Shown here in pieces: positions 15,052 to 58,631 of a DNA stretch of 60,855 bases. Under the pieces are notes generated by a model. It ran no database searches, was not told where the DNA came from, and saw only the letters and a list, made by a program, of their open reading frames with translations. The position numbers and the translations under genes were made by a program. Numbering within the stretch: position 1 is the first letter of the stretch; every line of letters begins with the position of its first letter. Source of the DNA: Cochliopodium minus. Taxonomy: Eukaryota; Discosea; Himatismenida; Cochliopodiidae. The stretch is from positions 29,168-90,022 of the forward strand of contig JAMYWO010000011.1 in the NCBI GenBank assembly GCA_024220525.1, given 5' to 3'.

Positions 15052-16249
15052 ATGAAAGAAAATATAATTGAAGGTTACTTTGACAATATTGGAAAATCAC
15101 CCCTATTGAAAATCCAATCCTTGTCTAAAATTACTGGTTAGAGATTTAATAAATCTTTAGGATTCCAAAAAATATTTTGCTTTTTTTTATTCACTTATTT
15201 ATTTAATGATAGGATCATCTATACTTGGAAAATGTGAATTTATGAATTTGGTAATTTATATAGACAGATTACCCTTGAATCAACATTTAAATTTTATAAA
15301 GGGATCATCAGTCAAAGATAGATGTGCTACATACATCATAAAAGATGCTTTGGAGAAAGGAGAATTGGAGGGAAAAGAATATATTGTGGAAGCAACAGCA
15401 GGTATAAAAAAAAAAAAATAAGATTCTTAAATTCAATTAAATCACTGAAAAACTTTTATAAACGAATTTTTAATTTTAATTTCTATGCTTTTAATAAGAA
15501 AATAACTTTGAATAAGAAAATAATTTTTATTTGATAGGAAACACTGGTATTGCTTTGTGTTTGTTGGCAAATTCCATCGGTAAAAAAGCATTTTTTTGCT
15601 GTCCTGTAAAAAAAAATTTTAAAAAAAAATTTAAAATTAAATTTAACAATTATTCTTCATTTTATTTTTTTTTGAATAAAGGAATACATTTCTGTTGTAA
15701 GAAAAAAAAAAATCATTTTTAAATGGAATTTTTTCAAAAATTTTTAAATTTTAAAGGAAAAAATTGATTATTTAAGAAAATTGGGAGCAAATGTAAAAAT
15801 TTTTTTAACTATTTAATAAAGCTTTTTAAAGATTTCTTTAATGTTATTTTTATTTTTAATTTTTCTTTTTGTTTTTTTGATTTTTTTCTATTTTTTTTTT
15901 TGATTTAGGTGAAATTGTGCCCTGCTGTACCCATTACCGATGAAAGACATTTTCTAAATCAGGCAGTTGTAGTTGCAAAAGAAATTAATGGATTTTTCGC
16001 AAATCAAATGGAGAATTTGAACAACATGAAATGTAAAAAAAAATTTATTTTTAAATAATTGACAATATATGGATTTTTAAATTAATTTTTATCCATTTTA
16101 ATTTATTTTTTTTTTTATTAATTTTTTCATTATTATTTTTGTTAGCTCATTATGAAACAACTGGACCAGAGATATGGAATCAAACCAAAAACAAAATCAC
16201 AATTTTTACATGTGCAGCGGGAACTGGTAAAAAGAAATTTTCAAAAAAN
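15052..16249 (+). CDS. Cysteine synthase, first eight exons (second tandem copy)
   Basis: Exons 15052-15136, 15212-15251, 15301-15401, 15538-15605, 15681-15695, 15756-15791, 15909-16033 and 16146-16225 splice in phase. The product is a fold-type II PLP enzyme that makes cysteine from O-acetylserine (or a related substrate) and sulfide. Visible motifs are KSPLLKI, the PLP lysine in GSSVKDR, EATAGNTGIAL, and [13 protein letters not shown] followed by the glycine loop beginning AAGTG. Exon 5 is only 15 nt (EYISV), flanked by AG and GTAAGA, and the same exon exists in the other copy. The first donor is GTTAGA where the other copy has GTAAGA. The gene is cut by the N at 16250; 16173-16249 equals 57880-57956. 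No mitochondrial or secretory signal is apparent. Confidence 0.88.
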
Positions 16250-16250
16250 A
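16250..16250. other. Single-N scaffold join C/D
   Basis: The preceding 77 bases (16173-16249) are identical to 57880-57956. The sequence after the N belongs to an unrelated reading frame, so the apparent frame across the N is false. The true continuation of piece C is 57957 onward or a near-identical copy of it. Confidence 0.9.
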
Positions 16251-16495
16251 ATTTGGTTGTGGGAGAAATTCCAAGCGGAAAAAAAAGGGTTGGAAGTTTC
16301 AGAATCACTTTCATAAGAAATTGGCATAAAGGAGAGAAGTACTTTGGAGGTGATCTTAGTTTTCGTTTTTTTCACGAAGTACGTGAAGCAGGTGTACTAA
16401 AAGGCGAAAATGCAGAAGATGAAGAGTACCAAGATGAAGCAATACCAATCAGTGATGAAGAGGCTTTCACTGAAATTAATCAAAAAAATAAATAA
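16251..16495 (+). CDS. C-terminal exon of an unrecognised protein
   Basis: An open frame from the start of piece D to TAA gives 81 residues. The first half is folded-looking (VGSFRITFIRNWHKGEKYF, DLSFRFFHEVREAG); the end is acidic (ENAEDEEYQDEA). The 5' part is outside piece D. No family recognised. Confidence 0.45.
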
Positions 16496-45673: not shown

Positions 45674-48434
45674 TTAATTCTTATTTAACTTTTCGTTAAT
45701 AACATTTGGTATTTCCTCAATCTTTATCGGTTGAGAAATAGATTCCAAAACATCAAAAACAGAATTAAAGTGATCAGGCTGTTTGATATCAAACAAAATT
45801 TCGCCAAAATCCCAAGAAAAGGTATTCTCGTTGAAATAACACTTGGCAACAATAGCATCCTCAATTTTGTAAACAAATTTCTTCTTAGAAGAATCTTTTT
45901 GAAGAGGATCATCTTGATCATTCAATTTGTTTTGATTTCCAATCTCTTCGTGGTAAACCAAATCGAAAACTCTTTTGTTGAGACGACTTGCATGTTGCTC
46001 CAAAGACCCCTTAATGAGAGAAAGCTGGGTATCATTGAAATTGGCTCGCTTGCAATAAAAAAGGCCATTGTCAGAAACACAAGTGAAGAAAAGGTTCTGG
46101 ACAATGTATTGGACATCTCTTTTGTTACGAGGAGCAGTTCTAATGCATAATTGAAAATCAACAGAAGTGAAACCAGGAAAATTCCACTTGAACATGTGGA
46201 AATTAGAAAGAGGGAGGTAAGGAGTCATGAAGGGAGAGAAAACAATCCCGCTAGAGTAAGTTTTGAGGTTTCCAAACTGAAAGCAGGGATGTGTGTTGTC
46301 GTAAGAAAAATTTGAAACAAAAGAAGAAAACTGATCAAATTGAAAAAAGGGTTTCAAAAACATTTTGAAACAGTTTGTGTTACTAGAAAAATTAAAATTG
46401 AATTTATCAATTAAATTCTTGAGAGTGGAAAGTCTTTCGCTGAAAGGCTTCACAACAACGGAAACACCGTCAGAGGACAAAAGGTCGAAAGCAACATAAA
46501 CCATCTCGTTGTTGAGCAGATCTTTGACGATCTCCCCATCAATGACAGTATCACCACTCTTAGAAAAAAAATGAAAGAGATTCTCATCAATGTTTTTCAT
46601 TTTGTAAAAATCAAAGTTTTTATCGACAAAAAAAACTCCGCTGTTATTTTTAGGAACAAAAATGGAAAATCTCTCACTTTGAGACTTTGCCGAAAAATAA
46701 TATCCGCTATTCAAATTGTGCATTCTATTGTTGTTGAGGAGTATTGGGTGGCTTCCTGGGAAGATGTGAAAATTAATTTCTTTGAGGGATTGGTAGCCAA
46801 AGATGCGGAGAAATGTTTTTTTGAGAGGCTTTGCTTCGTATTCATCCACCATTTCAAATCTCTTTTCAAAAAAATCATAAGTTGTGTTTTCTTCACAAAA
46901 TTTTTTATTTTCATTTTTATTATTATTCTTATTATTTTTAATTTTATTTTTCTTTTTATTACTATTACTATTATTTTTATTACTGTTTCTGTTTTCATGA
47001 TCTTTATCGTTGTCTTTGTTGTAATTTTTGTCGTAAGAAGATTTCATTTTTTTGTTGTTAAACAGATCATTTTTGTGATTATAAAAAACAGATTCTTCTT
47101 CATTCAAATTTCTTTCACCACTTTTATCGTGAGAACCATTGCCAGCATTTTTACTATAATTACTTTTATTGTTGAAATTATTATTATTGTTTTTATTTTC
47201 ATAAAAATAATCCCCATGATTATTGTTCTGAGAACTATTTCTTTCGTTATATTGTCCATTATTTTGAGAGTTGTAATTGTTTTGGGAACGATCATTGCGA
47301 GAATGGTAACTTTTATTGTAATAATTATTGTTTTGATTATTGTTATAATTGTCGTTGAAATTATTATTATTGTAATTTTTATTGTTGTAATTATGGTTGT
47401 TGTGATTATTGTTTCCTTTGTACGAAGAAAACAGAGATGATGTCTCTTCCCAAAAAGAAGAAACCAAATTGAACAAATCATTTATTTCCATGAACAACAC
47501 TCTTGGATCAAATTCAAATTCTACCTATAAAAAATTTAGAAAAGATTTTTTAAAAAAAATTAAAAACAAAAAACAAAAAATATTAACAAAAAAATAAACA
47601 AAAAACAAAAAAATCACTTCAATTTTTGGATTTTCTGTCTTTTCAGTCATTCCTTCTGAGGTGTATTCGTACGTTTTGGTTTCTACTTTGCTAACATCGA
47701 CCCACCACAATTCATTACACTTGTATGATGAAACTTCCTTTTCTCTCGTGAAAGTGTACCCAAACAAAACTTCTTTGATATCACTTCTTGAAGAAGAACT
47801 GTTGTTGTCTTCGCTGCTTATTTGACATCTCATGCTCATGTTCAGCTCTCTGCTGTACCTGTCTGTTTTATAAATACTTCTTTTGTCAATGTCTCCCATT
47901 AACACCTTTGTTGTCAAATTTTGTCTTTGCGAAAAAAATTTGTTTTTCAATATTAATATTAATTTCAATAAATGATAAATTATTTAATAATTGAAAGTGT
48001 TATTTGGTATGTTCTTCTGATAAATGGAAATTATAAATATATATATAATCAATATCATAATATATTGGCCAATTGATGACGATGATATTGATCAAAATTC
48101 AGAATGAATATAAAGTATTGTTTGATTTTATAAAAAAAAAAATTGAATAATACCTAATTCTTCTTTTATTTCCCATCATGCCTTGATCATAGAAATAATC
48201 TTTTGTGAGAGTACATGTTTTCTTCCATTTAGTATCATTTTTGAATTTCTCGATCAACATTTGGTGGAGATCATTACCTATTTCTGCCTCAAATCTATTA
48301 TTAAATCTCCTTCCCAATCTGATCTCTAATTCAAGGATATCTTTAGGAAGATGGGAATATTTATCTCGATTTCGATCGATAAAATCAACAAGGAATTCGA
48401 TAATATCTGATTCATACTCATTCTTTCTTTTCAT
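45674..48434 (-). CDS. Bifunctional mRNA capping enzyme: TTM triphosphatase + guanylyltransferase
   Basis: Three minus-strand exons (48434-~48153, ~47934-~47614, ~47524-45674), about 810 residues. The first two and the start of the third encode a Cet1-type tunnel triphosphatase: ELEIRLGR (metal-binding Glu strand), WWVDVSKVE, and VEFEFDP (second Glu strand). A ~150-residue Asn/Tyr-rich linker follows. The guanylyltransferase shows FPGSHPILL, motif I AKSQSERF (consensus KxDGxR), motif III TVIDGEIV, IIIa VYVAFDLL, IV SSGIVFSPFMTPY (consensus DGLIF) and V FKWNF (consensus LKWK). The Lys nucleophile and Arg of motif I are retained but the DG pair is QS. Covalent fusion of a metal-dependent RTPase to the GTase differs from yeast (separate proteins) and animals (phosphatase-type RTPase). 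Convergent with PARG, 45 bases apart. Confidence 0.85.
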
Positions 48435-49631: not shown

Positions 49632-50791
49632 ATGGAGGAAGAAAAAATAATATGGGAAGTATGTATAGATTCTGTTGAAAGTGCCATCCAAGCGGAAATA
49701 GGAGGTTTCAATTTTGGATTAATTCCTATAAAAACCATTTAACAAAGAATAAATTATTTAGGTGCTGATAGAGTTGAATTATGCAGTGCATTAATGGAAG
49801 GAGGTAAATATTTTTTAAGAAAATAAAGCAAAAAATATTAATAATCTTTTATTCTCGAATAATGAAGGGTATATTTCAATTTAAATGATAATCAAATCCA
49901 ATTAATCCTTTGGATATAGATTAACACCAAGCTATGGGCTCATAAAATTGACAAGAAGCAAAATAAAAATACCCATTTATGCAATGATTAGACCAAGAGG
50001 CGGTGATTTCTTGTAAGATTAATTCTATTATCAATAAGAAACCATAAATATGTGATTATATTCTTTTTCACACCTTTCAATTTTGATATTTTTTGTAATC
50101 TTTCATTTTCTTAGATATAACAAGGATGAATTTGAAATAATGAAGGAAGATATCAAAAAATGTAAAGAATTGGGTGTGAATGGAGTAGTATTTGGGATAT
50201 TGAATGAAGAAGGGAAAATAGATGTGGAAAGAATGAAAATATTAAAGGAAATTTCAAATCCATTGAAAATAACATTCCACAGAGCATTTGATATGGTAAA
50301 AAATCCAATAGAATCATTAGAAGTGCTCGAAAAACTTGAAATAGAAAGAATATTAACATCGGGATGCGAAAATACTGTTCTGGAAGGTGTAAGAAAAATT
50401 ATATATAAAGAAATTAATCAACTTTCAATTCCATATTATTTGGATCGTAAAGAGAAATTCACCTTTTATTTTTATTATTCGTTCAATTCATATCGCAATT
50501 TCCTATATAGATTGATCTGATTTGTGAATTGATTCAATTTACAATAGATAGAAATATGAAGATCAAAATTATGCCTGGTGGTGGCATAAATGAAAGAAAT
50601 ATCAAAAAGATTGCATCAATAACCAAAGCAAAAGAATTCCATACTAGTGGTAGAAAGACCATTAGAAGTGAAATGAAATATCAAAATGATAGAGTTTCAT
50701 TTTATGGAACCTCAAAGATATCAGAATTTAACATCAATGTTGTTGATGGAAATAGAATCAAAAATTTCATTCATCTCACCCAAAACAAATG
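49632..50791 (+). CDS. CUTC: CutC-family protein with a predicted 1-nt exon
   Basis: A TIM-barrel CutC protein of about 245 residues. Exons 49632-49702, 49762-49803, 49868 (1 nt), 49920-50011, 50115-50388 and 50511-50791. Family motifs are all present: [89 protein letters not shown] and EFHTSGR. CutC was linked to copper handling in bacteria and binds Cu(I) in humans, though the role is debated. The conserved EGGLTPS cannot be made from two exons: direct splicing of 49803 to 49920 leaves the frame one base short. Treating the G at 49868, flanked by AG and GT, as an exon restores GGA GGA TTA. It is divergent from the Smr gene (236 bases). Confidence 0.88.
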
Positions 50792-51289
50792 AAAAAGGGA
50801 AATAATAATTTTTTTATTTTTCTATTTTTTTTTGCTCTCATATTATAATTATAAATAATTATTAAAGAAAATATATAAAATATTTTTAAATGTTGGATGA
50901 TAAAATTTATATTAGTGTTTTATTGCTTATAATCTTTTAATCATTTCAAAATTTTTTTTCTAAGCTCTAATAAATTATTGAGATATTGTTAATTTTTGGT
51001 ATTTTAAATTAATTTATTAAAATAAAATTCATACTTTTTAAATTACCAAGGAAAAATAAAGTGTAATTAATGCAATAAAAAAATATGGCTTCAAATATCG
51101 AAAAATAATATTATTATTTGGTCGTTATAGATTTTTAATTTTTGATATCCGCCAAAAAAAAAACGATATATAAATTATAAAAAAAAAAAATATCGTTACC
51201 AAATAAAAAAATATCTTAAAATTTAAAAAATAAATAATAAATAAATAAAAAAAAAAAACCATAAAAAGAACCTAAAAAAAAAAGAAGAA
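50792..51289. other. Spacer between CutC and the zinc-binding gene
   Basis: Nearly 500 bases of AT-rich DNA. A short imperfect inverted arrangement around 51110-51200 (TATCG near ATATCCGCC and again AAACGATAT / TATCGTTACC) is visible but too weak to call an RNA or site. No gene recognised. Confidence 0.4.
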
Positions 51290-56797: not shown

Positions 56798-58631
56798 ATG
56801 GAAGAAAATATATTTGAAGGCTACTTTGACAATATTGGAAAATCTCCCCTATTGAAAATCCAATCCTTGTCTAAAATTACTGGTAAGAGATTTGAAACAT
56901 TTTCGAGGATAAAATAGACGAAACAATTTTCACAGATTTAAAAATATTTTTTTTTATTCACTTATTCAATGATAGGATCATCTATACTTGGAAAATGTGA
57001 ATTTATGAATTTGGTAAATTTATATAGACAGATTCCCCTTTTGAATCAACATTTAAATAATTATAAAGGGATCATCAGTCAAAGATAGATGTGCTACATA
57101 TATGATAAAAGATGCTTTGGAGAAAGGAGAATTGGAAGGAAAAGAATATATTGTGGAAGGAACAGCAGGTATAATAAAAAATTTTATCCAAATTTCATTT
57201 TAATTCTCCAAAAAAAAATTAATTTTCATAAAAATCATTTTCTATCAAATGAATATTTTTTTATCAAATATTAAAAAACTTTTGATGATAGGAAACACTG
57301 GTATTGCTTTGTGTTTGTTAGCAAATTCCATCGGGAAAAAAGCTTATTTTTGCTGTCCTGTAAAAAAAATTTAATAGATAATGAAAAGAACATTAATTAC
57401 TAATTTGTTATTTGAAAAAAGGAATATGTTTCTGTCGTAAGAAGAAATGCTAATGATCTTTAAAGAGAATATTTTAAAATTTTTAAATTTAAAAGGAAAA
57501 AATTGATTATTTAAGAAAATTGGGAGCAACTGTAGAAACCTTTTTCATTTTTCTCTTTTCATTTTCATTTTTTCATTTGTTTTTTTTTTTTATTTGGTGA
57601 AATTATGCCCAGTTGTTCCTGTCACAGACGAAAAACATTTTTTTAATCAAGCAGCTATAGTTGCCAAAGAAATAAATGGATTTTTTACAAACCAAAAGGT
57701 AAATGTAAACAATATGAAAGGTACAACAAAAATTATTTTTAAATATTTGACAATAAATGTACTTTTAAATTAATTTTTATCCATTTCATTTATTTTATTT
57801 TTTATTTTTTTTTTATTATTATTATTTTTAAAAATTTTGTTTAGCTCATTATGAAACAACTGGACCAGAAATATGGAATCAAACCAAAAACAAAATCACA
57901 ATTTTTACATGTGCAGCGGGAACTGGTAAAAAGAAATTTTCAAAAAAATTTTTAATTCACAGTTTTATTTTAACTGATAAAAAGGTGGAACCATTTCTGG
58001 AACTTCTAAATTTTTGAGAGAAAAAAATCCTAATGTTAAGATTGTAGCTTGTAAATTTTGGTGTTTTTAAATGTTTTTTTAAAAAATAAAACAAATTTCA
58101 AAATAATCTCAGCATTAAATCGTAAAACTTTTTTTTTCCAATTATTTTAAACTTGTATTTTTATTTTTTTTTGTCTCTATGAATTTTTAATTTTTTTTAA
58201 TTTTATTTTTTTGTTGATTAATAATGTAAATTAATTATCACTTTCATTTTAATTCTTAAATTTTTTATTTATTTATTTTATTTTCAGAATCTCAATATGT
58301 CGTGCCATACAAGAAAAGTGAGAAGCACGAAGGATTGTTTGAATGGATGGAGATGTCAGAAGAAGACAAGAATAAAAGAACTTTCACCTCCTCTTCCATG
58401 GAGGGTACTGGTTCCCTAATTCTTTTTGAGAACTTAGTGAAATGTCCCGTCAACGACAGTTTTCAAATTAGTGATTCTCTTGCAATCAACATGTGTGTAA
58501 AAAATATACTTGTTTAAATTATTTTTTAGTTTAAATTTTTTTATTTTTTTGTTCTATTTTTCAAAATATCCATAATTTAAAATAATTATCTCAAAAGCAT
58601 TTTTTGCTCAAATATGATGGATTGTTTGTTG
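56798..58631 (+). CDS. Cysteine synthase, copy 1 (last exon lies in piece C)
   Basis: Exons 56798-56882, 56976-~57014, 57069-57169, ~57292-57360, 57422-57436, ~57496-57531, ~57600-57720, 57846-57925, 57985-58050, a predicted 9-nt exon 58113-58121, 58288-58496 and 58598-58631. The PLP lysine is in the GSSVKDR context; then [38 protein letters not shown] and [12 protein letters not shown]. The missing twelfth exon is found at 14659-14897. The exon at about 57600 lacks an AG acceptor: copy 2 has GATTTAG before GTGAAATT, this copy has TATTTG. With NQKVNVNN against NQMENLNN, this copy may be drifting or the intron may use an unseen site. After 58671 the sequence leaves the gene through an ATTT-rich tract into a sedolisin. 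Confidence 0.82.
57880..57956. repeat. 77-bp overlap identical to 16173-16249
   Basis: Exact match to the last 77 bases of piece C, bounded upstream by a single difference (GAAATATGG here, GAGATATGG in C). It marks the point where the two tandem cysteine synthase copies become indistinguishable to the assembler; 57957-58598 probably represents both copies. Confidence 0.88.

Follow-up and report, generated by a model that had tools for sequence, protein, structure and literature searches.

Can a spliceosome build a protein-coding frame through an exon that is one nucleotide long? The question is raised by a CutC gene of Cochliopodium minus. The window analyzed here, 60,855 nt of contig JAMYWO010000011.1, is AT-rich, with a G+C content of 22 to 28% in 5-kb steps, and carries this gene at 49632-50792 on the forward strand. 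When the single base G49868 is included, the joined product has 254 aa and belongs to the CutC family, scoring 241.3 bits in a profile search with PF03932 (curated cutoff, 23.3). Its residues 7 to 249 match PDB entry 3iwp, a "Copper homeostasis protein cutC homolog" that we take to be human CutC, with an E value of 8.5e-73. All boundaries of the gene are in phase except the one between exons 2 and 3 (Table 1). A CutC family search of the genome, which spans 44.65 Mb in 598 contigs, listed no second CutC locus.

Table 1. Exons and introns of the CutC gene, with window coordinates and the basis of each feature
Feature	Position	Strand	Description and basis
CutC exon 1	49632..49704	+	ATG start; gene model, predictor, product identical to P0001
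CutC intron 1	49705..49761	+	57 nt, GT-AG, phase 1; gene model, predictor
CutC exon 2	49762..49803	+	GAA GGA G at end, phase 1; gene model, predictor
CutC intron 2a	49804..49867	+	64 nt, GTAAAT...GAAG; sole canonical solution
CutC 1-nt exon	49868..49868	+	G, very probable middle base of glycine-39 codon G/G/A; enumeration, predictor, product identical to P0001
CutC intron 2b	49869..49919	+	51 nt, GTATAT...ATAG; sole canonical solution
CutC exon 3	49920..50012	+	A TTA ACA CCA at start, phase 2; gene model, predictor
CutC intron 3	50013..50114	+	102 nt; gene model, predictor
CutC exon 4	50115..50388	+	family search, gene model, predictor
CutC intron 4	50389..50510	+	122 nt; gene model, predictor
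CutC exon 5	50511..50792	+	stop codon TGA at end; predictor

Several other features of the window and genome were recorded alongside the gene. Parts of a protein resembling cysteine synthase/CBS recur almost unchanged at 15242-16495 and around 57714-58120, the mark of a duplicated or broken copy, and the first of these gene models includes an N at 16249. Single N bases also stand at 2972 and 14459; all three are perhaps unresolved or heterozygous positions. On the reverse strand, 45674-47899 encodes a long stretch rich in asparagine and, behind it, an mRNA capping enzyme domain (PF01331). The gene content of the genome includes many asparagine-rich proteins and many Ras-family genes, the latter a very large family with at least 164 matches (150 of 771 candidates scored); such a content suggests an amoeba-like protist.

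The preliminary description of this locus had placed the end of exon 2 at GAA GGA G (49803) and the start of exon 3 at A TTA ACA (49920), and both are read in the sequence. It was also right that the two do not fit: with the 116 nt between them removed as one intron, the frame is off by one and a stop codon stands right after the junction codon, ending the protein at MEGD. This gap holds AAG/G/GTATAT at 49865-49874, in which a lone G at 49868 follows AG and precedes GT. Taken as an exon, G49868 supplies the base needed for the reading frame, giving MEGGLTPS and 254 open codons, and leaves two workable flanking introns of 64 and 51 nt. The claim that these are normal lengths for the genome holds as well, since both belong to the principal length class of 45 to 75 nt, which takes in 155 of the 339 predicted introns.

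Does the mature mRNA carry the additional base? The product was searched against about 5.8 billion proteins, and the 7,999 candidates with the most shared words were scored. The best match, a EukProt protein of 254 aa with ORF type complete, TRINITY_DN331_c1_g2_i1.p1 (here called P0001), is identical to the two-intron CutC model letter for letter, whereas the remaining 119 matches listed have at most 56% identity. By naming convention, a TRINITY_DN name denotes a de novo transcript assembly. Because P0001 equals the 254-aa product, the mRNA carries the extra base, as judged at the protein level, and this base must be G because, between an exon 2 ending at 49803 and an exon 3 starting at 49920, only GGA among the GNA codons encodes glycine. 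P0001 would accordingly imply GGAGGATTA at the exon 2/exon 3 junction of the transcript nucleotides, and a CutC transcript spliced through G49868 would be expected to read GGAGGATTAACA there. We infer that base 49868 is the source of the extra mRNA base. Position 39 is glycine in all 120 aligned proteins, P0001 included (best 120 of 7,897).

P0001 is unlikely to stem from a paralogue, since the family search lists just one CutC locus. Among the 120 matches listed in each case, neither a predicted ArfGAP nor an HSP70 of the same genome has an identical EukProt protein, so that the transcript set holding P0001 is either partial or not fixed in its identity. For the HSP70 at L028:96-2030, the best EukProt match among those listed has 89% identity over 82% and bears the name Spiro4, perhaps for a Spironema data set or for an organism living with Spironema.

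Which splice patterns can produce this protein? We enumerated patterns over 49762-50012, allowing either two introns of at least 30 nt each with GT-AG, GC-AG, or AT-AC ends or one intron with any ends. Exactly one canonical two-intron pattern yields P0001, namely, 49804-49867 plus 49869-49919 around G49868. No canonical one-intron pattern in this span yields it, and all the other canonical one- and two-intron patterns there were rejected for the same reason. The single-nucleotide exon put forward in the preliminary description is thereby supported as the only canonical two-intron pattern that yields the transcript-derived protein.

Two related splicing modes were considered and set aside. Zero-nucleotide recursive splicing proceeds through a ratchet point AG/GT that leaves no base between the splices; here, AG and GT are separated by one base, which the product requires. 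A spliceosomal twin intron (stwintron) is an intron nested within a splice element of another, again with no exon base left; the canonical solution at this locus consists of consecutive introns with one retained base, as found in an enumeration that covered consecutive introns.

The neighboring introns were compared with those of the genome by means of a gene finder self-trained on the window and further genome stretches (245,508 bases, 374 introns, all of them predicted only and at most 220 nt long). Length statistics were drawn from 339 of the predicted introns, leaving out the CutC gene and genes with a coding sequence of <450 nt; among these, 51 nt lies at the 8th percentile and 64 nt at the 37th. 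Exon gaps measured by homology in myosin, HSP70, and TCP1 genes (corrected for overlap) start at 50 to 53 nt, two unclear pairs aside, which places a 51-nt intron at the lower edge of what this genome uses. AAG 3' splice sites are rare in most eukaryotes. The 339 predicted introns end in AAG (154), TAG (152), CAG (28), or GAG (5); AAG acceptors are thus about as frequent as TAG, though the finder started with A at position -3 set to 3%. In comparison with 190 reference introns of an earlier model, whose flanking exons are at least 40 nt long and which leave out the CutC gene, intron 2a has its donor at the 81st and its acceptor at the 33rd percentile, and intron 2b has its donor at the 51st and its acceptor at the 3rd. 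The latter site (ATATAG at 49919) is weak, and it is common to the reading with a one-base exon and to a reading with one intron and an assembly error. No clear enriched hexamer was found as a branch-point motif among 112 short introns.

The finder itself, at a gene penalty of -16, returned unprompted exactly the model of five introns that includes the 1-nt exon, and it did so again after retraining on more sequence. This was one of three gene penalties tried; -10 truncated the gene, and -22 dropped it. With a learned penalty the CutC gene was split, and a first run, in which N stretches were read as A, gave no CutC gene. The local parse with the 1-nt exon scored 25.38, versus 17.37 with the acceptor at 49867 forbidden. 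With that acceptor forbidden and a frameshift permitted at a cost of 5, the score was 20.34, i.e., 25.34 before the cost, and with the acceptor allowed, the 1-nt exon parse was best at frameshift costs of 5, 7, and 9. Across the 245,508 bases, the finder predicted no 1-nt exon other than that of CutC. Its remaining exons of at most 6 nt measured 6, 5, and 0 nt, all predicted only, and the 0-nt "exon" was taken as an artifact of the 220-nt intron maximum.

Could the assembly have lost a base that the transcript retains? Under this explanation, which the preliminary description had named as the alternative, one G is missing at the junction, a single ordinary intron of about 116 nt separates exons 2 and 3, and the match of AAGGGTATAT within that intron is due to chance. 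It would yield the same protein as P0001, and 116 nt is a permissible intron length, at the 67th percentile of the predicted introns. G runs are a usual spot for indel errors, and a crude frameshift-tolerant pass over 245 kb made 41, 17, and 12 candidate frameshift calls at penalties of -9, -12, and -15, respectively; none of the calls listed falls in the CutC gene, and they are too crude to serve as an assembly error rate. A lost base would, however, reduce the well-placed AGGGT to coincidence. AGGGT with at least 45 nt on each side turned up at a rate of 0.105% when a 116-nt intron was simulated 40,000 times at order 2 and of 0.77% when the 116 nt of CutC were dinucleotide-shuffled 20,000 times, and AG-N-GT with any N and both parts at least 45 nt long was present in none of the 149 other predicted introns of at least 93 nt. 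When one exon base was deleted on either side of the 339 introns, a 1-nt exon rescued the junction in 2 of 678 simulations (introns of 207 and 85 nt), and exons of 1 to 3 nt numbered nine in all; most introns lack the length needed for a split, as just 149 of the 339 reach 93 nt. An indel of 1 to 2 bases would give an implied gap near 0 nt between adjacent matched pieces, and none of 99 adjacent exon pairs from myosin, HSP70, and TCP1 genes has such a gap. This control covered 149 matched pieces (69,945 nt) and took pairs within 600 nt and with <60 profile positions skipped; some pieces contain stops and hence run through introns, and Ras-family matches were not counted. The two pairs with implied gaps below 40 (14 and 34) skip profile positions, and their raw gaps measure 65 and 100 nt. 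Given no indel-like break in 99 pairs, frame breaks should number fewer than about 4e-5 per base at 95%. With about three places for a lost G and a mimic chance of 0.3 to 0.8%, an error that imitates the exon is expected at about 1e-6 or less per junction. In plants, the two conserved families with 1-nt exons (PMC8831610), set against some 128,000 Arabidopsis introns (PMC5575664), give a frequency of about 1.6e-5. By our estimate, an exon is favored over an error by odds of some tens to one, a figure that holds even with the error rate at its upper bound. On the intron scan, the exon pairs, and the deletion simulation, a one-base assembly error is thus unlikely, and we grant it a small probability.

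Two further explanations are weaker still. The enumeration found three one-intron patterns that yield P0001 exactly, all of 115 nt and all with noncanonical ends: GT..TA at 49804-49918, TA..AG at 49805-49919, and AA..GA at 49806-49920. Any of them would explain the protein, yet they do so with unorthodox ends where a canonical alternative exists, and they too would make the AGGGT a coincidence; we regard such an intron as highly improbable. A frame-broken pseudogene, or programmed frameshifting, would be suggested by the assembled sequence if it is read with one 116-nt intron, and by that sequence only. It is contradicted by a complete ORF that bears a transcript name and equals the product of the two-intron model, and with G49868 included the frame stays open across 254 codons, which leaves this explanation barely credible. 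We conclude that G49868 is very probably a real single-nucleotide exon.

How might such an exon be spliced? The introns of this genome often measure 50 to 75 nt, a length at which splice-site pairing works best across the intron, and the spliceosome may treat every short intron as one unit (intron definition). Spliceosomes can hardly occupy both of two introns separated by a single base at the same time, and the 64-nt and 51-nt introns would therefore probably be removed sequentially, as argued likewise for Arabidopsis APC11 (PMC4674806). Either order would leave canonical sites: with intron 2b removed first, the acceptor would read GAAG/GATTA, and with intron 2a removed first, the donor would read GAGG/GTATAT. 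The single G would complete a glycine codon in the EGG motif of CutC, and the protein would depend on it, since skipping it leads to a stop after the junction codon.

As to its origin, the exon likely arose when a second intron inserted at the AG/G of an existing AGG/GT exon end, a step that would leave exactly one G without any intermediate loss of frame. For Fusarium CYP621A, the authors suggest that a base was lost first and that a cryptic AGGGT was then taken into use (PMC12940212). A general route may be sketched from the two cases, in which one-base exons recur among short, intron-defined introns, by an intron inserted at the AG/G of AGG/GT or by adoption of a cryptic AGGGT, with the lone G filling a glycine codon; the match between CutC and CYP621A would then be convergence, and many one-base exons would await annotation in eukaryotic genomes whose gene models never allowed for them. 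We offer this tentatively, and it is rather more likely to be wrong than right.

The case bears on more than one gene. It would extend to other short-intron spliceosomes the ability to process exons of the smallest size there can be, and it would show that gene predictors break on one-base exons. With AGGGT standing in a glycine codon both in CutC and in Fusarium, the route could be one that recurs. Exons 2 and 3 with everything between them span 251 nt, which would make this region a compact natural substrate for studying the order in which introns one base apart are removed.

How does the CutC exon compare with known one-base exons? Introns of placozoan mitochondrial cox1 are not known to be of the nuclear spliceosomal type. 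That gene has, like CutC, a single base pair exon, but it is mitochondrial (PMC5436844). No one-base exon from a protist was found among the papers listed from the open-license PubMed Central literature, where the nuclear cases come from land plants and Fusarium. The preliminary description had called such exons documented in plants; that is correct, but a Fusarium case published in 2026 widens the range (PMC12940212), and the CutC exon adds a further nuclear one to APC11, VPS55, and Fusarium CYP621A. Arabidopsis APC11 resembles CutC in being nuclear and in restoring its frame by a single base that stands between AG and GT, whereas its base is A, its composite intron measures 422 nt, and it was proved by constructs in protoplasts (PMC4674806). 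The 1-nt microexons of APC11 and VPS55 in land plants are, like that of CutC, nuclear and were missed by annotation (PMC8831610). The closest parallel in detail is CYP621A. As in CutC, its one-base exon is a G within AGGGT that supplies the middle position of a glycine codon belonging to a conserved motif; the boundary upstream is phase one and that downstream phase two, and the composite intron (139 nt in F. graminearum) exceeds the median length of 56 nt more than twofold (PMC12940212). CYP621A differs in being a fungal P450 with RNA reads and 20 Fusarium orthologues (24 genes in the discussion of that paper) (PMC12940212), whereas the CutC case comprises one locus in one genome, with transcript support at the protein level.
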